From: Candidatus Peregrinibacteria bacterium CG10_big_fil_rev_8_21_14_0_10_42_8
Lineage (GTDB): Bacteria; Patescibacteriota; Gracilibacteria; Peribacterales; Peribacteraceae
Assembly: GCA_002772815.1 (NCBI GenBank)
Contig: PFDQ01000019.1
Coordinates: 1 to 33,651 of the forward strand
Direction: 5' to 3'
Length of the DNA stretch: 33,651 nt
Under the pieces are notes generated by a model that ran no database searches, had not been told where the DNA came from, and saw only the letters and a program-made list of their open reading frames with translations. The stretch's first letter is position 1. Each line of letters begins with the position of its first letter. The position numbers were made by a program, and so were the translations under genes. Of this stretch, positions 2,497 through 15,824 are shown piece after piece.

Positions 2497-2682
2497 TTAT
2501 TGGAGATATGATGAAAATGCAGGACAGTACTTTACCCCACGTTTTTTACAACTTTTCTGCGCTTCCTTTGTAAAAGCAGTCATCCCTGTAAGTGCATTGA
2601 GCTTACTTTCAACAGATGCATACTTCATCCGTCGAAGTTGCTCTGTGTCAAAACCCGATGTTCGTGCTTTCTTTTTTTTCAT
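2497..2682 (-). CDS. Small basic protein, partner of adjacent nucleotidyltransferase
   Basis: 61 aa MKKKKARTSGFDTEQLRRMKYASVESKLNALTGMTAFTKEAQ...; overlaps the upstream NTase stop by 4 nt. Confidence 0.6.
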   Translation of the reverse strand: MKKKKARTSGFDTEQLRRMKYASVESKLNALTGMTAFTKEAQKSCKKRGVKYCPAFSSYLQ

Positions 2683-3182
2683 AGATCTTTCAATTCTAGA
2701 AGAGCAACAGCATCTTGTATATCTTTTTCTCTGTCAGATTGCTTTTTCATATCAATAAGATCATCAATGGACACGACAGGCACATCGATGTTCCACACTT
2801 CTGCACGCATGGTGTGCTCTGAAAATTTCTCGAAGTCGATTGACTGCGCAACGAGCACATCTACGTTGAACTGAGGATATTTGTCATGGATGAATGAATA
2901 GGCAATCAAGCCTTTTTCGTTAATGAATGCACGAGCTTGTTGTTCATCGGAGAGTTCTTGAATGCTTATGGGTAGCCTTTGCTGATATCCCATGTCTTCC
3001 ATGATCGTCGCCATCTTGTCCAGATTCTCTCGATCAAGGGTCAGTAGAATATCAAGATCATTCGTAAAGCGCGGATAACCATGCAAATTCACTGCCACTC
3101 CACCCACAATCAGATAGTTGATATGATTCTCAGAAAATGCGCGCAGCAGAGGTTCATAGGTTTCCATAGATGAATATATCAT
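2679..3182 (-). CDS. Nucleotidyltransferase-fold protein (MNT/AbiEii/DUF6036-like)
   Basis: INYLIVGGVAVNLHGYPRFTNDLDILLTLDRENL: G-G-x(8)-R-x-T-x-D-x-D motif; strong SD AGGAGGTGAT immediately upstream of the start. Confidence 0.85.
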   Translation of the reverse strand: MIYSSMETYEPLLRAFSENHINYLIVGGVAVNLHGYPRFTNDLDILLTLDRENLDKMATIMEDMGYQQRLPISIQELSDEQQARAFINEKGLIAYSFIHDKYPQFNVDVLVAQSIDFEKFSEHTMRAEVWNIDVPVVSIDDLIDMKKQSDREKDIQDAVALLELKDL

Positions 3183-3539
3183 ACGCTATCACCTCCTGTT
3201 ACAGAAGTTTGATTTCTGTCCAAGTTGGCTCCACAACCTGTTTGACGTTCGCGCGGACATCACCGAAACATTCCACAGACTTAAAGCGGCGTTTTCGCTA
3301 TTTAATCCAGCTCTCTAGGCAAGTTTTCAATATCGGAGTGACAGAAAAAATAGCACACAGTGCTATGGCGCGGTCATGCCAGATTCCCCCTTTCTAGGGG
3401 TTTACATATACTCTTATATATGGTAAAAATATCTTCCCTAGAATACCCTGAATTGAGTTTCTATAGTTCTTTTCTGTGTTCTAGGCGTTCATTCACATAA
3501 ACGGCAATGAAACATGATTAGAGAATCCCATTTTTGGGC

Positions 3540-3597
3540 TTTTCTAGTAACAGCAATTTGAGTATGAATTTGTGCTTAAGTTGCTGTTACTAGGAAG
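3540..3597 (+). ncRNA. Candidate structured RNA hairpin: 27 consecutive base pairs closed by an AAUU tetraloop
   Basis: 3540-3566 pairs with 3571-3597; 13-bp perfect core CTAGTAACAGCAA/TTGCTGTTACTAG plus G-U wobbles that only pair in the + strand transcript. Confidence 0.55.
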
Positions 3598-3607
3598 AGT
3601 TTCCTAG
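3590..3607 (+). promoter_or_regulatory. Overlapping hairpin CTAGGAA-gagt-TTCCTAG, mutually exclusive with the base of the 3540-3597 stem
   Basis: Perfect 7-bp arms; shares 3590-3597 with the preceding stem. Confidence 0.5.
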
Positions 3608-3698
3608 CTCCATGCCGCTCGGCAAGGAGTTCTTTACCACCTCTCATGTCTACTGTTGCAGGGACTGAGAGTTAACCTCAATCGAAGGAGATTGAACC

Positions 3699-4808
3699 AT
3701 GCAACGCGCAACTGTTCTGGAAGAAGCGAAGAGGGATGAACACATTCGACAGATGATCGAATGGCACTTCAGCCCTGACGCAGGAAGTCCGTTCTGGCTG
3801 AGCCAGATGGATGAACTTGGCTTTGATCCGCGCGAAAAGGTGAAAGGTTTCGGCGATCTCGTCGAGCATTTCCCCAACTTCGACGGTGACAAGCACCTGC
3901 GTACTGTCAGCGCTGATCAGTGGATTCCGACAGGTTTCACTGAAGCGCAACGATGGTCGATGTTCGTCACGGGCGGAACGACGGGTGACCCCAAGCGCCG
4001 ACTCGGTCGACGGGGGATGGAACGCGGTGAGTCTGATATTGCTGACGACTACCACGCGTTCGCCAAGCACCTTTCTGCCGGAGGGGGTTTCCCCCAAGGC
4101 GGCAAGTGGCTCTACATTGGTCCCGGAGGTCCGCGTCGTCTGAAGCGTGGAGTGGAAGTCCTCTCCAACGTCCACGAGTCGGTGTTTATTGAAATCGACA
4201 TGGACGTGGCGTGGATGAAGAGTGGCAACAATACCTTGAAGGGTCCCTACAAGCGGGAACTCGTCGAGCGTGCCATTGGTGCGCTGCGACGTGATCGCCC
4301 CGACAAGGTGTTCTGCCCGCCGATTCTCATTATGGCAATTGGCGAACTCTTCGACTGGTCGGAGAGTGGCGTCACCGGCGTGTTTGCCGGTGGTACGGAA
4401 ATGTCACCGGAGACGGTGCGTTTTATTCACGAGGAGTTGTTCAGAGGCAAAGTCCATTTCGCGCCGACCTACGGGAACGCGCTGGTGGGCATCGCTCCGA
4501 ATCGTCCTTACTCCACGTTCGATCGACCAATCGCCGGTCAAGATCCTTACCAAGTCATCTACCAGCCGCTGCAACCGCAAACGCTGCTACGGGTGACGAA
4601 GAAGGGGGACAGCCAGTCTCTGGTCGAGTATGGTGAGTTCGGCTACGTCGAAATCACCACAGTCACGAAGAGTTGGTTCATGCCGCGCTTTCTTGAGCGC
4701 GACTACGCCAAACGCATTGCTCCGACAGAAGAGTTTCCGTGGGATGGTCTGGCTGAAATCCAGCCTCCGCCGGAACTCAAAGGCAAACTGTCCACAGGTG
4801 TTTACTAA
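3699..4808 (+). CDS. ANL-superfamily adenylating enzyme (acyl-protein synthetase/phenylacetate-CoA ligase-like)
   Basis: P-loop-like FVTGGTTGDPKRR; FAGGTEMSPETVRFIHEELF...FAPTYGNALVG; RBS GAAGGAG 8 nt upstream; visibly GC-richer than neighbours. Confidence 0.75.
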   Translation: MQRATVLEEAKRDEHIRQMIEWHFSPDAGSPFWLSQMDELGFDPREKVKGFGDLVEHFPNFDGDKHLRTVSADQWIPTGFTEAQRWSMFVTGGTTGDPKRRLGRRGMERGESDIADDYHAFAKHLSAGGGFPQGGKWLYIGPGGPRRLKRGVEVLSNVHESVFIEIDMDVAWMKSGNNTLKGPYKRELVERAIGALRRDRPDKVFCPPILIMAIGELFDWSESGVTGVFAGGTEMSPETVRFIHEELFRGKVHFAPTYGNALVGIAPNRPYSTFDRPIAGQDPYQVIYQPLQPQTLLRVTKKGDSQSLVEYGEFGYVEITTVTKSWFMPRFLERDYAKRIAPTEEFPWDGLAEIQPPPELKGKLSTGVY

Positions 4809-4841
4809 ACCATGCACTAACAGAAAGGAAAACGTGCAACC

Positions 4842-6263
4842 ATGACTATTCAACTTCCTGCCCTTCGCTTCGGCGATGGGTATCAAAGCCTCAACCGCAA
4901 CCCGGTCGTTGACTTGGGTTCGGGGGAGGAGATCGCAACGCTTGGACTGGTTGACGGGTCCATGATTGCAACCGACTGCCTTCATGGCGGGAGGTTGCAA
5001 GTCGCATTGGATGCGCTTCAGGCAATTCCAGTGCGAAAACGGATCGCAATGTCAGTCGAAGCGGCTAATCACTTCGAGAGTGCCACGCTCGATTGCGGGG
5101 GTGATGATCAGACCCTCGACAATTACATCGAGCAACTCGCTCGTACGAGTGGACTGTCCTTCGCGCTTGCCAAAGCGAATACCTCGCGTATTTGCGCGGC
5201 ATTGCGAAGCACCGAGGACGTGTTGAACGGATTGTCGCGTGGCTTGCCACTCGACATCTACGACACTGGTTTCGGTACACAGGGTGGAGCCAATGTGCGG
5301 ATTAATCCCCGCATAAAGGCTCTCGGATGCTGCATGCCGAATAACTCACCCGGCGTGCATGTCCTGTGGCTGACACCGCTCGCGTTCGGCATTCCGGTTC
5401 TGATCCGACCAGGAAGTTCAGAGCCGTTCACGCCGTACCGGCTGATCCAAGCGCATATTGCCGCTGGATACCCCAAAGAAGCCTTTGGGTACTATCCATG
5501 CGACTACGGCGCAGCAGATCGCATCCCAACGCTCACGGGCGGAGGGATCGTCTTTGGGTCGGATGCAACGGTCGAGAAGTGGGCTAGCAACCCACGCGTG
5601 AACGTCCATGGTTCGGGCTACAGCAAACTCTTTCTTGGCGACGATGTCGTCGATGATTGGGAACGCTTGCTGTCCGAAATGGTGAAGAACGTTGCTGCCA
5701 ACAGTGGTCGAAGTTGCTTCGCTGTGTCGCGCATTTGCGTTCCACGGCATGCAACGCAGATCGCTGCGGCACTGGCGGAAGAGCTGGCGAAAATTGCCCC
5801 TCTCCCGCTTCAAGATCCAGAAGCGAGACTGTCTGCGATGTCGATGCCACAAGTGGCAACGATGGTCGATGAGAGTATTCGTGAAGGACTGGAGCAGGGG
5901 GATGCCACCGACGTGACCGCACGGTACCGAAAAGGCGACCGTTTGACCACGTTCGAGGGACGGACATACCTCCAGCCAACACTGGTGACGTGTCCGGGGA
6001 ATGACCATCCTCTGGCACAGAAGGAGTTTCTCTTCCCTTACTCCGCGATTGTTGAATGCTCAACAGATCAGGCATTTGCTGAAATGGGTCCAACGCTTTC
6101 GCTGGCTGTCTATACCAATGACGACCAGCTCAAAATGCGCGCCCGTCGCAGTCATGCCAGACTCGTCAGCATCAACGTGCCGACAGGGAAGCTCGACCGA
6201 CGACAGCCGCATGAAGAGGATCTCTTTGATCTCCTCTATCATCGGCAAAGCTACGTCGAGTAA
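4842..6263 (+). CDS. Aldehyde-dehydrogenase-fold protein (acyl reductase candidate)
   Basis: MPNNSPGVHVLWLTPLAFGIPVLIRPGSSEPFTPYRL and catalytic-Cys region NSGRSCFAVSRICVP typical of the ALDH fold. Confidence 0.8.
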   Translation: MTIQLPALRFGDGYQSLNRNPVVDLGSGEEIATLGLVDGSMIATDCLHGGRLQVALDALQAIPVRKRIAMSVEAANHFESATLDCGGDDQTLDNYIEQLARTSGLSFALAKANTSRICAALRSTEDVLNGLSRGLPLDIYDTGFGTQGGANVRINPRIKALGCCMPNNSPGVHVLWLTPLAFGIPVLIRPGSSEPFTPYRLIQAHIAAGYPKEAFGYYPCDYGAADRIPTLTGGGIVFGSDATVEKWASNPRVNVHGSGYSKLFLGDDVVDDWERLLSEMVKNVAANSGRSCFAVSRICVPRHATQIAAALAEELAKIAPLPLQDPEARLSAMSMPQVATMVDESIREGLEQGDATDVTARYRKGDRLTTFEGRTYLQPTLVTCPGNDHPLAQKEFLFPYSAIVECSTDQAFAEMGPTLSLAVYTNDDQLKMRARRSHARLVSINVPTGKLDRRQPHEEDLFDLLYHRQSYVE

Positions 6264-6296: not shown

Positions 6297-6327
6297 GCCC
6301 TCCTGCTTCGGTAGGAGGGCTTCTTTT
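6297..6327 (+). terminator. Rho-independent terminator with UUCG tetraloop
   Basis: GCCCTCCTGC-TTCG-GTAGGAGGGC followed by TTCTTTT. Confidence 0.9.
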
Positions 6328-7577: not shown

Positions 7578-9065
7578 CTATATAAGTTGTAATGCTCTCC
7601 ATATCTCCACCATAGCAATGGTATCCAGCTTGCAGTACTCCAGAAGGTTTGCAGCTATGTTTTTCTGCTCCTGCTCACTTAATCCATCAAACATCATCTG
7701 TTTCCATACACTGCACGCCATACCTCCATCACTTACTACTAGGTCTGTATAGCTTAAGTCAGGTACGAGTACAGGCAGTACAGCTTTAATAGAGCTACTA
7801 CCTTTGAAGTCTTTGTGTACGTAATGCTGCTTACTAAAGATTTCCATTAAGTCGTAGAAGCGATTATTTACGCCATGTAGGAACTCGGCTAGCTCTGGTA
7901 CGAAATTCGCTAGGTCTTCGTTGCACTTACCTTCAAACTTCTTATTCCAGACAATGACAGTACCGGTGTCTCCTATATCTGCTCGTAGCTTTTCTGCCAG
8001 TGGCTTCATTGGGTTGTCATCTTTTGTCTGTAGGTACTCGGTATGCACAAGCTCTCCTTCTGGTTCATGCAGGGTATGTAGCGAGTACTGAAATGGCACT
8101 TGTTGGAAGGGGTAACAGCCATCGAATACAGGAATAGCTGCCGGGTAGGTTTCGTAGTCTAGGAAGTAGATAGGGTACTCAATTCTCTGTAGCTCCTCAC
8201 GAATTTTATCTTCGTGAATGATGACATCATTGGTATTCGTTACGTGTACCTGGGGCTGCTGTGTAGAGCTTAATTCGTATTCTTTCGGAATATCGGTAAT
8301 GGATAACCAGTCGTTATCTATCATCTCCTGTAGCTTCTTTGGACTACTACCTATCCGACAAATATCATGCACAGAGTAATCTGGTACATGTGGATGGCAG
8401 TATGCGAAGACAGGACAATGATGATTGCGAGCTTTATAGATGCATTCACATAGTGGTGGTTTGTCGTTTTGCATCACCTTCTTGGCGTTTTCTATGTGTA
8501 ACAGTATGTCCTGCTCCATATTTCCCATCTCTTCCGTAATATCTGACTTTATCAGAAGGTCTATGGGGTCAATTTCTCCGTCTTTCGCAAACTCCTTGTT
8601 TAGCTCTATGAGTTGTACTTTACCGACTGGCATATCAGCCTTCTCAAGTAGGATTTTTTGAAAGCAGGCATCTTGATAGTGGATTTCTTTTTTTACTTCT
8701 TTTGAGGTTGTTCCTTTCACCTCATTTACTATCCAGTATGAGTTTTCTTCATCCCATTCCAGAATATCGACCATTGCGTATAAGCCATCTGCTTCAAAAG
8801 TTGCTTGAAAGATTACCTTTGTCTCTGCATCAAGGAGATTCTTTGTATCTTCCACAGCTTGTACTTCTCTAGAAGTGACCAAAGTTCCACTGGGATACAG
8901 CTTACGAGCCCACTGCTCTACTTCTATACCTTGCTCAACAATCTGCTTCTCAAAGTCACTCAAGGGTATCTTCTCTACCTCCTCTGGTTTGTTCTTGCGT
9001 AACCAAAAGTGCGTAGGACACTGCATGTACGCCAAGAAGTCTGTTTTAGAGATGTGGGAAGCCAT
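7578..9065 (-). CDS. DUF2779 protein (RecB-like N-terminus plus RNase H-like domain)
   Basis: MASHISKTDFLAYMQCPTHFWLRKNKP...; CECIYKARNHHCPVFAYC Cys cluster; IYFLDYETYPAAIPVFDGCYPFQQVPFQYSLH...GTVIVWNKKFE...LLEYCKLDTIAMVEIW. Confidence 0.85.
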   Translation of the reverse strand: MASHISKTDFLAYMQCPTHFWLRKNKPEEVEKIPLSDFEKQIVEQGIEVEQWARKLYPSGTLVTSREVQAVEDTKNLLDAETKVIFQATFEADGLYAMVDILEWDEENSYWIVNEVKGTTSKEVKKEIHYQDACFQKILLEKADMPVGKVQLIELNKEFAKDGEIDPIDLLIKSDITEEMGNMEQDILLHIENAKKVMQNDKPPLCECIYKARNHHCPVFAYCHPHVPDYSVHDICRIGSSPKKLQEMIDNDWLSITDIPKEYELSSTQQPQVHVTNTNDVIIHEDKIREELQRIEYPIYFLDYETYPAAIPVFDGCYPFQQVPFQYSLHTLHEPEGELVHTEYLQTKDDNPMKPLAEKLRADIGDTGTVIVWNKKFEGKCNEDLANFVPELAEFLHGVNNRFYDLMEIFSKQHYVHKDFKGSSSIKAVLPVLVPDLSYTDLVVSDGGMACSVWKQMMFDGLSEQEQKNIAANLLEYCKLDTIAMVEIWRALQLI

Positions 9066-9072
9066 AATTGGG

Positions 9073-9423
9073 TTAATTGAATTGAGATAAGTAGTCATTA
9101 ATTCGTTGTTTATCCTCTCTGTGACTCTCACTCTTGATATATAGCTCAATGAAGATGATTTCTATCGAATCCTCATGTCTAGCGTAAATAACACGAAACT
9201 TATTACCACGAAGAGTGGTACAAGGCATTTTAGCTTTATAGACGCTGACATCACCCTGTGCCTTTAGCAGGGTGTAGTTTTTATTTGTTCCTGGGAAACC
9301 GTTATCCTCTTCTAGTTTCAGAGTAAATTTGCAAAATCGTTCTATATCCAACTCAAGGCTCCGAAACTTTTTAATAAGCTTCTTGCATTCACTTTGGCAT
9401 TGGCTGGTAAAGCTATAACTCAT
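9073..9423 (-). CDS. RelE/ParE-like toxin candidate
   Basis: MSYSFTSQCQSECKKLIKKFRSLELDIERFCKF...RGNKFRVIYARHEDSIEIIFIELYIKSESHREDKQRI; start overlaps end of the upstream antitoxin gene. Confidence 0.7.
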   Translation of the reverse strand: MSYSFTSQCQSECKKLIKKFRSLELDIERFCKFTLKLEEDNGFPGTNKNYTLLKAQGDVSVYKAKMPCTTLRGNKFRVIYARHEDSIEIIFIELYIKSESHREDKQRINDYLSQFN

Positions 9424-10306: not shown

Positions 10307-10609
10307 TCAGCGAATCATCGCATACAGCCCTTCGGCTGCAAATGTCGCTTGAAAGATTTGTGTTTCTCCTGCATCCAGTAGAGCTTTCGTATCTTCTACA
10401 GCTTGTAGATCTCTTGTTTCTATGAGTTTACCCTTCGGGAAAAGTTTTCGTGCCCACTGTTCTACTTCTATTCCCTGCTCAATGATCTGCTGCTGGAAGT
10501 CGCTTATGGGCAGTCTTGCTACCACTTCTGGCTTGTGCTTTTCGAGCCAAAAATAGGCAGAACACTGCAAATAGTGCAAAAATTGGGTTTTAGAGGTGTG
10601 TGAGTGCAT
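10307..10609 (-). pseudogene. Truncated DUF2779 paralogue (N-terminal ~95 residues only)
   Basis: MHSHTSKTQFLHYLQCSAYFWLEKHKPEVVARLPISDFQQQIIEQGIEVEQWARKLFPKGK...GLYAMIR* aligns with the N-terminus of the 7578..9065 product, then stops. Confidence 0.85.
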
Positions 10610-10822: not shown

Positions 10823-13800
10823 ATGAGCCAAGTGATCCAAAATTATTTAACGCAAATAGAAGGACTCTTAAAAAGCGGACAGGCTACTGAGCATTCATAC
10901 CGTCCTGCTCTTAAAGATGTTTTTACAGAGATTACACAGCTCTATGTAGTGAATGAGCCAAAAAGGAGTAAGCATGGAGCACCAGATTTTATCTTTGTGA
11001 ATTCATCAGAAGCACCTGTGTGTTGGGCAGAGGCAAAAGATATTGGTGTATCGCTGGATAAGATTGAAAAGAGCGAACAAATGAATCGCTATTATGGTTA
11101 CGCAAACCTCATTCTAACAGATGGTTTGGAGTTTCGATTTTATAAAAACGGTGAGAAGTATGGCGATCCAATTGCTATAGCTATATATACAAATGGTGCA
11201 TTCGTTCGAAAAGAGCAGTCGTATGAACTTTTTACTCGAAAATTAGCAGACTTCATAGCAGCCCCTATTGATTCTATTCGTAGCTCTGCACAGCTTGCCA
11301 AAATAATGGGAGGAAAGGGCAGAAGACTCCGAGATAACATCATTGAAATGCTATCAGATGATTTTAGAGAAAAACATGGAAATAAAACCAAAGAAATTGA
11401 AGGTATTAAAGAGGTATTGACCAAGAATCTCATACACGACCTAGATACACCTCAATTTGCCGACATTTACGCTCAAACTCTTGTTTATGGGTTGTTTGTT
11501 GCAAGGTATCACGATGACACACCAGAAGATTTTACTCGGGCAGAGGCACGAGATAGGATTCCTGCTAGTAATAAGTTTCTTCAGCAATTCTTCGATCATA
11601 TTGCAGGAACGAATTTTGAAAAAAGACTTTCATATATTGTCGATGAACTTTGTGATGTTTTTGCTCACAGTAATGTACATGACATAGTGCATGGCTTGTA
11701 TCAAAAAAAAGAAGATACACATGATCCAATCATTCACTTTTATGAAGATTTCTTGAGTGAATATGATCCTGCATTACGTAAGCAAAGAGGGGTATTTTAT
11801 ACCCCTCTTCCTATCGTGCGGTACATCGTAAAAAGTGTTGATAGCATTTTAAAATCCCATTTTGGATTACCTGAAGGCTTAGCAGATACCTCCAAAGTAG
11901 AGTACAACTACACAGAGCAGGGGAAAACAAGTAAGAAACAAGTTCATCGTGTGCAAATACTCGATCCTGCAACTGGCACTGGAACATTTTTAAACGAAAC
12001 TATTCTACATCTTTATAAAAAATTTGAAGGACAGGAAGCTTTGTGGAAGCAATACGCAAAAGAACACCTTGTACCACGGCTTAATGGGTTTGAGTTGATG
12101 ATGGCAAGTTATACCATTGCACACCTAAAGCTCAGTATGACTCTTGCAGAAACAGGAGTAGATGACTTACCAAGCCGTCTGCGTGTGTTTTTAACCAATA
12201 GTTTAGAAGCACCAAGTGATGAACAACCAAACCTGTTTACCTTAGGATTGCAAGGAGCATTAAATGAAGAGTCTGCAGCAGCAGATGAGATAAAGAGGAA
12301 TTTACCAATTATGGTTGTCATGGGGAACCCTCCGTATAGTGTGAGTTCATCAAACAAAGGTAAGTGGATAATTGACCTCACAAAAATGTATAAAGAAGGC
12401 TTGCAAGAAAAAAGCTACAACGCTCTCTCGGATGACTATGTGAAATTCATTTGCTTTGCTCAGCATCTCATCGATAACAATAAACAGGGGATAGTCGCCA
12501 TGATTACCAATAATTCTTTTATTGATGGATTAGTTCACAGGAAAATGCGTGAAAGTTTATTACAATCTTTTGATGATATATATATTCTCGATTTACATGG
12601 CAACAGTAAAAAGAAAGAGGTCGCACCAGATGGAGGAAAAGATGAGAACGTGTTTGATATTATGCAGGGAGTTAGTATCAATATTTTTGTGAAAACTGGA
12701 AAGAAGAAAAAGAATGAACTCGGAAAAGTGCATCACATAGATTTGTTTGGAAAACGAGACGCAAAGTACAAATGGCTAACAGAACATAATGTAAAAAATT
12801 CTCATTGGCAGGAATTGGAAGCATCAAAGCCAAATTATTTTTTTGTGCCGAAGGATTTCTCACAGGAAAAAGATTATAATGATGGTCTAAGTTTAGATGA
12901 ATTGTTTTCACTTCTTTCTAGCGGCTTAACGACATTTAAAGATGATTTGGTTGTATCGTTTGAATCTGAAAAAATAAATTGCTTGATACAAGAGCTTCAA
13001 AGTGAAAAAGAATCTGAGCTAAGAGTTCGGTACAACTTAAAGGATACTCGAGATTGGAAGTTGGCTAATGTTATTAATGATCTAAAAAATGCTAGCATTG
13101 AAAAAGTGTCCTACAGACCCTTTGACGTTCGTCATGTTTTGTATTCCCCAAATTCCAAAGGGGTTATTTCATATCCCCGATATGAAGTGATGAGTCACTC
13201 ACTTAAAAAAAATATTGCTTTATTGGCATGCAAAAGACAAACATCTTCTGATTTTTATCATGTATTTGTGACTGACACAATCTCTGAGCGTTGTTCCGTT
13301 TCACTTCAAACTGGAGAATTATCATACCACTTTCCTTTGTACCTCTACCCAGAACCAGATTCACTTGAAACCAAACGCAGACCAAATCTTGATCAGAAAA
13401 TCATTGACCAAATTGCGAAAAAGTTACAACTAGAATGGTTAGAAGATGGTAGAGGAAACGGTACATCTACCTTTGCACCTGAAGATATTTTCGATTACAT
13501 CTACGCCATTCTCCATAGTCCGACCTACAGAGAACGGTACAAAGAATTTCTTAAAATAGATTTTCCTCGAGTGCCATTTACGAGTAACAAAGAGTTGTTT
13601 TGGAAGCTTGTAGATTTAGGACGAGAAGTGAGACTGTATCATCTTATGGAATATGCTAAGTCTTCTGATTTCATCACAAAGTATATGGGTGACGGTGATA
13701 ATGTTGTCAGTAAGAAATTGAAATATCAAGACAAGAAGGTTTGGATAAACGATAATCAGTACTTTGAAGGAGTACCAGAAATAGCATGGAATTTTTACAT

Positions 13801-13972
13801 TGGCGGGTATCAGCCTGCGCAAAAGTGGTTGAGAGATCGTAAAGAAAGAGAACTAAGTTATGACGACATAATCCATTATCAAAAAATAATTGTTGCACTT
13901 GTAAATACAGATCGACTTATGAAAGAGATAGACCAAGAATTGGAGCGTTTTGGTGGTTTTCCTATCAAATAA
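10823..13972 (+). CDS. Single-chain type IIG/ISP-like restriction-modification protein (PD-(D/E)xK nuclease plus N6-adenine MTase)
   Basis: APDFIFVNSSEAPVCWAEAKD (PD...ExK); ILDPATGTGTFLNETI (SAM motif); VVMGNPPYSV (NPPY); long C-terminal specificity region. Confidence 0.85.
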   Translation: MSQVIQNYLTQIEGLLKSGQATEHSYRPALKDVFTEITQLYVVNEPKRSKHGAPDFIFVNSSEAPVCWAEAKDIGVSLDKIEKSEQMNRYYGYANLILTDGLEFRFYKNGEKYGDPIAIAIYTNGAFVRKEQSYELFTRKLADFIAAPIDSIRSSAQLAKIMGGKGRRLRDNIIEMLSDDFREKHGNKTKEIEGIKEVLTKNLIHDLDTPQFADIYAQTLVYGLFVARYHDDTPEDFTRAEARDRIPASNKFLQQFFDHIAGTNFEKRLSYIVDELCDVFAHSNVHDIVHGLYQKKEDTHDPIIHFYEDFLSEYDPALRKQRGVFYTPLPIVRYIVKSVDSILKSHFGLPEGLADTSKVEYNYTEQGKTSKKQVHRVQILDPATGTGTFLNETILHLYKKFEGQEALWKQYAKEHLVPRLNGFELMMASYTIAHLKLSMTLAETGVDDLPSRLRVFLTNSLEAPSDEQPNLFTLGLQGALNEESAAADEIKRNLPIMVVMGNPPYSVSSSNKGKWIIDLTKMYKEGLQEKSYNALSDDYVKFICFAQHLIDNNKQGIVAMITNNSFIDGLVHRKMRESLLQSFDDIYILDLHGNSKKKEVAPDGGKDENVFDIMQGVSINIFVKTGKKKKNELGKVHHIDLFGKRDAKYKWLTEHNVKNSHWQELEASKPNYFFVPKDFSQEKDYNDGLSLDELFSLLSSGLTTFKDDLVVSFESEKINCLIQELQSEKESELRVRYNLKDTRDWKLANVINDLKNASIEKVSYRPFDVRHVLYSPNSKGVISYPRYEVMSHSLKKNIALLACKRQTSSDFYHVFVTDTISERCSVSLQTGELSYHFPLYLYPEPDSLETKRRPNLDQKIIDQIAKKLQLEWLEDGRGNGTSTFAPEDIFDYIYAILHSPTYRERYKEFLKIDFPRVPFTSNKELFWKLVDLGREVRLYHLMEYAKSSDFITKYMGDGDNVVSKKLKYQDKKVWINDNQYFEGVPEIAWNFYIGGYQPAQKWLRDRKERELSYDDIIHYQKIIVALVNTDRLMKEIDQELERFGGFPIK

Positions 13973-13989
13973 TGATTTTACAAATGACA

Positions 13990-14018
13990 TTGCACATAGG
14001 TATATACCGAGATATAAT
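13990..14018 (+). promoter_or_regulatory. Candidate sigma70-type promoter TTGCAC-17-TATAAT
   Basis: TTGCAC 13990-13995, TATAAT 14013-14018. Confidence 0.5.
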
Positions 14019-14046
14019 AATATTATCCTCGCCGCTTTATGCGGTT

Positions 14047-14075
14047 CCCGAGCTGCCCGCGCACTCGGGTTTTTT
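14047..14075 (+). terminator. Rho-independent terminator CCCGAG...CTCGGG plus T6
   Basis: CCCGAG(14047-14052) ctgcccgcgca CTCGGG(14064-14069) TTTTTT. Confidence 0.8.
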
Positions 14076-14089
14076 ACATACAAAAATAT

Positions 14090-14770
14090 ATGCCAAATAG
14101 AGTCATTGTATTAGTTGATGGCTTTAATCTGTATCATGCTCTAAAAGGTGATAAAAGAACTGCTTCAAAAAGTAAGCATAAGTACAACTGGCGAAGATAC
14201 CATAAGTATAAATGGTTAGATGTGAAAAAAATTGCAGAGTGTTTTTTGCAACACGGTGATGAAGTTACCGCTTCGTATTACTTTACTGCAGTACATTGGG
14301 GTGCAGAAAAGGCGGCAAGGCACAGGCATTATATTGACGCTTTGCAAGCACATTCTATTGAAACTATAGAAGGAGAGTTCAAAAGGCGGGATATAACCTG
14401 TAGGGCAGAAGGGGGTTGTGGAAGAGTATTTGTAAAGCGAGAAGAAAAAAAGACAGATGTAAATATTGCTACGTTTTTATTGGGGCTAGCCAGTGAAGAC
14501 GCTTTTGACAAGGTTGTACTTATTTCTGGAGATAATGATCTCATACCAGCTATAGATTGGCTTAAAAGGCTACAACCAGAAAAGAAATTACATGTAATTA
14601 TTCCTATCAGTCGTTATGCCACTGATGATTTAAAAGATACGTTACATATGCTTGGGTACACCTATTCAGTCATGAAGGAAAAACATCTCAAGAAATCACA
14701 AATGCCAAATAGGATCGAACTTGATGACAAAACTATTCTGAATCCTTACCAATCTAATAATGAAGAATAA
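14090..14770 (+). CDS. NYN-domain (PIN-like) ribonuclease
   Basis: MPNRVIVLVDGFNLYHALKGD...KKTDVNIATFLLGLASEDAFDKVVLISGDNDLIPAIDWL: conserved Asp motifs of NYN family. Confidence 0.88.
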   Translation: MPNRVIVLVDGFNLYHALKGDKRTASKSKHKYNWRRYHKYKWLDVKKIAECFLQHGDEVTASYYFTAVHWGAEKAARHRHYIDALQAHSIETIEGEFKRRDITCRAEGGCGRVFVKREEKKTDVNIATFLLGLASEDAFDKVVLISGDNDLIPAIDWLKRLQPEKKLHVIIPISRYATDDLKDTLHMLGYTYSVMKEKHLKKSQMPNRIELDDKTILNPYQSNNEE

Positions 14771-15824
14771 CATTGTAAAACTCCCTCCCTCCTTCAACTT
14801 TGACCAAGTTGCTATTCTCAAGCAGCTAAACACTGCAAACATGGCTCTTGCAAAGCTCAACGCTACGGCACGCTTTGGCTTACTGCCAGACCCATTGCTT
14901 CTTATTGCCCCACTTCTTGCCAGAGAATCCGTAGCAAGCTCGGGAATAGAAAATATTAATACCACGGTAGAGCAGGTGTTTCAGATGGAACTGCTGCCAG
15001 AGAAAAAACGAACAGGAGCTGCAAAAGAAGTTTTGCACTACAGAGACGCTATGCTGGAAGGGTTTAAGATTGTGCAGAAGAAAGAGCTACTAACGACCAA
15101 TGACATCGTAAAGCTGCAGAAGATAGTAGAGCCGACCAAAAGTGGCATTCGCAAGTTGCCCGTAAGCATAAAGAACGAAAAAACAGGCGAAATAGTGTTT
15201 CAGCCACCAAACGGCGAAAAGGTACTACGAGACTTACTACAAAACCTCGAAAACTATATTCATGATGCAAAAGACGAAACAGATGCACTGCTCAAGATGG
15301 CAGTGATCCATCATCAATTTGAATGTATTCATCCATTCTTAGATGGTAACGGCAGAGTAGGACGTATCATCATGATTTTGTACTTAGTGCTCACAAAACG
15401 TATCGACTACCCGATACTGTTTTTAAGCGGATACATAGAAAAAAACAAAGGCGAGTATTACAGGTTACTGCGTACAACATCTGAAACAGGCGACTACACA
15501 GAATTACTGCTCTACTTTTTACAGGGCATAGAGGAGCAGGCTAATGATGGCATCGAGCGTTTAGAGAAGATCCAAAAGCTCATGGCTACATTCCGCAAGA
15601 AAGTACCCGATAGCATAAAAGTGCAGCACCAAGAACTAGCAGAATGCGTCTTTAGTCGTCCTTTGCTTACCATTGAGTATGTAGAGTCGTACTTTGACCT
15701 CAAAGCCCGCCAGACGGCTTCTAAATACCTAAGAGAGCTAACAGAGGCAGGACTTCTGGAAGAAGAGAAGATAGGGAAGTACAAAGTCTTCTACAGCCGT
15801 CCTTTTCTCAAGCTCTTGTCATAA
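14760..15824 (+). CDS. Fic family protein (putative AMPylase) with N-terminal inhibitory motif
   Basis: HPFLDGNGRVGR Fic motif; SSGIEN inhibitory-helix motif (S/T-x3-E-N); C-terminal winged-helix-like region. Confidence 0.92.
   Translation: MKNNIVKLPPSFNFDQVAILKQLNTANMALAKLNATARFGLLPDPLLLIAPLLARESVASSGIENINTTVEQVFQMELLPEKKRTGAAKEVLHYRDAMLEGFKIVQKKELLTTNDIVKLQKIVEPTKSGIRKLPVSIKNEKTGEIVFQPPNGEKVLRDLLQNLENYIHDAKDETDALLKMAVIHHQFECIHPFLDGNGRVGRIIMILYLVLTKRIDYPILFLSGYIEKNKGEYYRLLRTTSETGDYTELLLYFLQGIEEQANDGIERLEKIQKLMATFRKKVPDSIKVQHQELAECVFSRPLLTIEYVESYFDLKARQTASKYLRELTEAGLLEEEKIGKYKVFYSRPFLKLLS

Follow-up and report, generated by a model that had tools for sequence, protein, structure and literature searches.

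A candidate new family of structured leader RNAs upstream of a putative aryl-carboxylate reductase operon in Peribacteraceae

Background

What is the role of a very long RNA hairpin placed just ahead of a two-gene operon in a bacterium with a small genome? We addressed this question in the window, the whole stretch of 33,651 nucleotides from a Candidatus Peregrinibacteria bacterium (GCA_002772815.1, contig PFDQ01000019.1). The source genome has about 1.01 Mb and is 98% complete, and sampled members of its phylum range from about 0.5 to 2 Mb. To our knowledge, regulation in bacteria with ultrasmall genomes is little studied. A previous sequence-only reading of this DNA had proposed three hairpins ahead of the operon as a structured leader RNA of no known class. 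We followed up that proposal by folding, homology searches and comparison among species.

A 27-pair hairpin on the + strand

The long hairpin, which we call P3 (3540..3597, + strand), pairs 3540-3566 with 3571-3597 in 27 unbroken pairs around an AAUU loop. The stem has 20 Watson-Crick and seven G-U pairs, with a Watson-Crick core of 13 pairs; coordinates, pairs, loop and core were all as first described when we recounted them. It is the longest uninterrupted stem of the genome (the runner-up has 19 pairs, on both strands of 1,013,445 bases) and is present there in a single copy.

The segment 3520-3650 folds with a minimum free energy (MFE) of -57.0 kcal/mol whereas its shuffled versions average -29.1 (z -7.7), and 0 of 200 shuffles reach that value. 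The reverse complement of the same segment reaches -38.7, with the upper stem broken where the + strand has G-U pairs. P3 pairs in full solely as the + transcript, which agrees with the earlier claim of strand-specific pairing and of selection at the RNA level.

Searching genome contigs for the pattern of the hairpin core retrieved 10 loci, mostly Arthrobacter palindromes. Loci L108-L110, L112, L114 and L117 are intergenic palindromes of Arthrobacter/Paenarthrobacter with the form CCCAACTnAGTAACAGCAAACG, repeated within genomes. The dispersed Arthrobacter palindromes carrying AGTAACAGCAAACG have an 11-nt arm core in common with P3, as selected by the pattern itself; they are repetitive DNA in an unrelated context, and we regard the resemblance as chance.

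A long and nearly perfect hairpin, whose 11-nt core recurs in dispersed repeats of Arthrobacter, could also be a mobile palindrome, intact or as a remnant (MITE, REP or IS-end hairpin), that inserted before the operon. We consider this extremely unlikely: it is single-copy in its genome, is absent as DNA from 39 relatives, and has no match in phages or plasmids, nor by pattern in viral contigs. Moreover, in another genus the orthologous operon is preceded by the same covarying structure at the same site.

Homologous leaders in two other genera

Among 353 genomes of the class, orthologues of the aldehyde dehydrogenase-fold (ALDH) gene of the operon were found in genomes G019 (locus L121, 64% amino acid identity) and G198 (locus L122, 60%), and in no other. 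Both genomes belong to the same family as the source genome and to different genera. L121 has both operon genes in the same order, with 61% identity for the adenylating (ANL) protein. In L122 (C1 421500-431000; 4190-5786), the leader and the ALDH gene are present and the leader is still conserved. The ANL gene is nowhere in this one-contig genome, which either lost it or never had it.

In both loci, a leader that aligns with that of the window sits immediately upstream of the orthologous genes. Its local alignment beats all 500 dinucleotide shuffles in each of the three species pairs, whereas the similarity of the stretch upstream of the promoter is not above shuffles in the same test. As DNA, the leader has nothing similar in 39 related genomes. 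Small searches of two further classes in the phylum gave no additional members, the ANL protein query gave no relatives in genome contigs or 380 genomes of the phylum, and no viral contigs had an ALDH alignment. The genes neighbouring the operon differ among the three genomes. We describe the leader as a candidate new family of cis-acting leader RNAs, with three members so far.

Leader anatomy from promoter to start codon

All elements described here lie on the + strand. The predicted promoter (3401..3429) consists of TTTACA, 17 nt and TAAAAA, with a TG before the -10, and it is conserved in the three leaders. L121 presents TTGACG at 54-59 and TAAAAA at 77-82, and L122 presents TTGACT at 4178-4183 and TAAAAA at 4201-4206; the -10 and the 17-nt spacer are identical in the three sequences. 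From the position of this promoter, transcription is predicted to start at about 3436. The hairpins at 3540-3631 of the sequence-only reading are all there, but the extent of the leader was understated, as the element reaches some 100 nt farther in the 5' direction, to near 3436. A start downstream of 3631, which had been named as the result that would speak against a leader, is not what the sequence suggests; the conserved predicted promoter lies upstream instead.

The 5'-terminal stem, P1 (3437..3485), joins 3437-3446 with 3476-3485 in 10 pairs, and its loop is long in the window and 7-8 nt in the relatives. Directly 3' of it follows a conserved unpaired motif of 20 nt, GGCGWUCNUUYACAUNAACG (3484..3503), whose first two G close P1. 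The small hairpin P2 (3519..3546) comes from the MFE fold and is not clearly conserved in L121; its 3' arm (3540-3546) doubles as the 5' base of P3. Downstream, P4 (CUAGGAA/UUCCUAG, 3590..3607) overlaps the base of P3. It is pairable in the three leaders, as CAGGAA/UUCCUG in L121 and CAGGA/UCCUG in L122.

P5 (3606..3636) is a terminator-like hairpin at 3606-3631, CUCC-a-UGCC-gcuc-GGCA-a-GGAG, followed by UUCUUU, and corresponds to the third hairpin of the earlier description. Its place is taken by CCCCGCC-augc-GGCGGGG AUUUUAUUUUU in L121 and by CCUGC..GCAGG AGG UUUUUU in L122. These terminator-like hairpins and U-runs are stronger than those of the window, where the U-run (UUCUUU) is weak and P5 is not listed by a simple terminator scan. 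In three of three leaders, a terminator-like hairpin with a U-run lies between promoter and gene, about 50-70 nt ahead of the gene. The post-terminator hairpin P6 (3641..3671) carries a GUCUnCyGU motif; it is conserved in L121 (77% identity, 95% of cells paired), and GUCU..AGAC is kept in L122. A short tail, the Shine-Dalgarno sequence and the start codon at 3699 complete the leader.

The core common to the three leaders consists of P1 with the 20-nt motif, P5 and P6; the long P3 is not universal. On base composition, 3183-3699 of the window contains seven CTAG tetramers in 516 bases versus about 1.6 per kb elsewhere, several of them within the arms of P1, P3 and P4.

Evidence for selection on RNA structure

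For P1, we aligned the three leaders with shortened loops, entered by hand to keep the arms in register. The 10 pairs had 96.7% of cells paired across three species, three pairs were changed on both sides, and the covariation score was reached by 3 of 500 shuffles. For P3, L121 retained 26 of the 27 pairs of the window: 18 unchanged, five with one-sided and three with two-sided changes, and one lost. In a simulation, the same number of substitutions scattered randomly over the arms gave an L121-like pair retention with a probability of 6.5e-5. Sliding the partners by 1-3 columns reduced the pairing between window and L121 from 97% to 37-49%. The two-sequence shuffle control for P3 was weak, with 29 of 500 shuffles reaching its percentage of paired cells. 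Its absence from L122, the third leader, marks P3 as an optional module and not as the sensor.

We also searched with two covariance models. R1, built from the window alone, recovered the L121 leader on the correct strand (E=1.4e-9); its only other matches in about 1.03 Mb were the same two hairpins read from the opposite strand. R2 was made from the three leaders and covers promoter, P1 and motif, so its members match by construction; they scored 69-91 bits, and nothing else in 341 genomes of the class exceeded 30 bits. Structure with compensatory change, of the kind expected of a cis-regulatory leader, is present on the coding strand and upstream of orthologous genes in three species for P1 and in two for P3.

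The promoter-proximal part could instead bind a transcription factor as a DNA operator, with hairpins that are only mRNA-stabilizing 5' or intrinsic structures. The motif lies about 30-70 nt past the predicted start, and in L122 its ends resemble an operator (CGUUC..GAACG); in L121 these palindromic ends are broken. P1, with its G-U pairs, compensatory changes and little sequence conservation, suits RNA better, and P3 pairs fully on a single strand only, as RNA. We thus find an operator unlikely.

The operon (3699-6263) has a G+C content of 56% in a 42% genome, and the G019 copy sits in a neighbourhood of 57% G+C, which suggests transfer within the family. Since the operon is well above its genome in G+C and the neighbourhoods differ, the cassette has moved. 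It is nevertheless highly unlikely that the leader is conserved merely through a recent whole-cassette transfer between lineages, with no selection on it. The proteins share 60-64% identity and fourfold-degenerate codon sites are 35-39% identical between window and L121, near random, a divergence at which sequence free of selection could not be aligned any more. Identity between the same two loci nonetheless reaches 74-80% in motif, P3 and P6 (80% for the motif), which refutes an unselected leader. The leader keeps a G+C content of 39-42% even where host coding DNA has about 57-61%.

Comparison with known RNA families

None of the 4227 families of Rfam 15, riboswitches and T-boxes included, matched the three leaders at its gathering score. 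Weaker matches at permissive thresholds were eukaryotic microRNA hairpins or scattered, and we attribute them to chance. The earlier proposal of a structured leader of no known class is well supported by comparison, because it passed the four tests applied to it: stability over shuffles, the Rfam search, compensatory change in homologous leaders at orthologous operons, and the position of the promoter.

In layout, the leader resembles the terminating riboswitches and attenuators among the Rfam 'Cis-reg' families, with a promoter-proximal structured domain, alternative hairpins, a terminator-like hairpin with a U-run, and then the gene. It differs from them in having no sequence or structure match, and its switching and ligand are only putative. 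The PyrR-binding and pyrG leader attenuators also have a small 5' element ahead of the terminator; their match was at chance level, in one of three leaders, with 16.7 and 18.7 bits versus gathering scores of 54 and 65. We discarded a leader-peptide attenuator as well: the ATG after the motif opens MKHD-stop in the window and a different frame in L122, and L121 has no ATG.

We found no description of this leader in the open-licence literature. The lone paper found with both 'Patescibacteria' and 'riboswitch' treats riboswitches only as engineering tools (PMC11665869).

A proposed mechanism

Our main reading, with a probability of roughly 0.6, is that a transcribed cis-acting 5' leader of about 260 nt controls the aryl-carboxylate-reductase-type operon through conditional transcription termination. 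RNA polymerase would start near 3436, and sensing, be it of a metabolite or of an RNA-binding protein, would fall to P1 with the 20-nt motif. The state of the sensor would bias the fold between P2, a short P3 and P4 on one side and the full P3 on the other. This outcome would decide whether P5 terminates transcription or the operon is read through.

The base of P3 and P4 are mutually exclusive and of near-equal energy, as conserved alternatives, in line with the exclusion of the first two hairpins noticed from the start. The full P3 and the P2, short P3 and P4 states are about 1-3 kcal/mol apart in the window and in L121. Only in L122 does P4 exclude P5 completely, and their overlap is 2 nt in the window and none in L121. 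For this reason, the coupling of P4 to P5 may vary from member to member, or be governed by kinetics or a protein. No uniform anti-terminator appeared across the three leaders, and no pairing or pseudoknot partner of the 20-nt motif is shared by them, each leader having its own candidates. We infer that the leader is switchable, and possibly a riboswitch.

In its most specific form, which we put forward tentatively, the leader would be a rare new riboswitch class of Patescibacteria-like bacteria. P1 and the 20-nt motif would recognize what a carboxylate reductase of the EhpF/GriC-GriD type consumes or makes, and the 27-bp hairpin would be an optional module. Candidate ligands would be aromatic acids or aldehydes and metabolites related to them.

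Protein sites on RNA are often short, unpaired and beside a stem. An antiterminator or other RNA-binding protein, and not a metabolite, could read P1 with the 20-nt motif or the long double-stranded P3, which might serve as an RNase III site, and the bound protein would set read-through or the half-life of the mRNA. The conserved unpaired motif next to P1 fits such a protein, P6 in the read-through part is also conserved, and one species does without P3. However, the neighbours of the operon differ in the three genomes, so that no gene for a candidate regulator accompanies it, and none of the known protein-binding leaders in Rfam was matched. We find this explanation rather unlikely.

The operon and its surroundings

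The first gene (3699..4808, + strand) encodes an EhpF-like ANL protein, whose nearest solved structure is EhpF (PDB 3hgu/3l2k, E 2e-26). Its plasmid homologues, at about 30% identity, are annotated as arylcarboxylate reductase or phenazine biosynthesis. The second gene (4842..6263, + strand) encodes the ALDH-fold reductase partner (PF00171, E 1.5e-14). A terminator-like hairpin read from the sequence, GCCCUCCU..AGGAGGGC followed by UUCUUUU, closes the operon at 6298..6326 (+ strand).

In Streptomyces, 3-amino-4-hydroxybenzoate is activated by adenylation by GriC and reduced by GriD (PMC10179220). The operon has the same two-gene layout of adenylation and reduction as EhpF (phenazine) and GriC/GriD (grixazone). 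Unlike them, it has no biosynthetic cluster around it, and G198 retains only the ALDH gene. Given the EhpF-like ANL protein, the ALDH fold and the GriC/GriD parallel, a carboxylate reductase is a fair inference from sequence analysis.

Upstream of the leader, an AbiEii-like nucleotidyltransferase gene (2679-3182) is present in 20 of 57 genomes of the family, and similarity to relatives at this gene stops at about 3166-3209. Downstream of the operon, 7578-9149 encodes a DUF2779 protein with a weak match to Cas4-like nucleases. Two diverged direct repeats (72-73%) at 8772-9059 and 10316-10603, 1544 bases apart, represent a partial duplication. A defence cluster at 10823-15824 contains a type IIG restriction-methylation enzyme, a HEC-09-like protein and a SoFic-like Fic protein.

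Significance

A conserved RNA control tied to one operon would provide a handle on the purpose of an unusual reductase in these bacteria. If the leader senses a ligand, that ligand should name the pathway.
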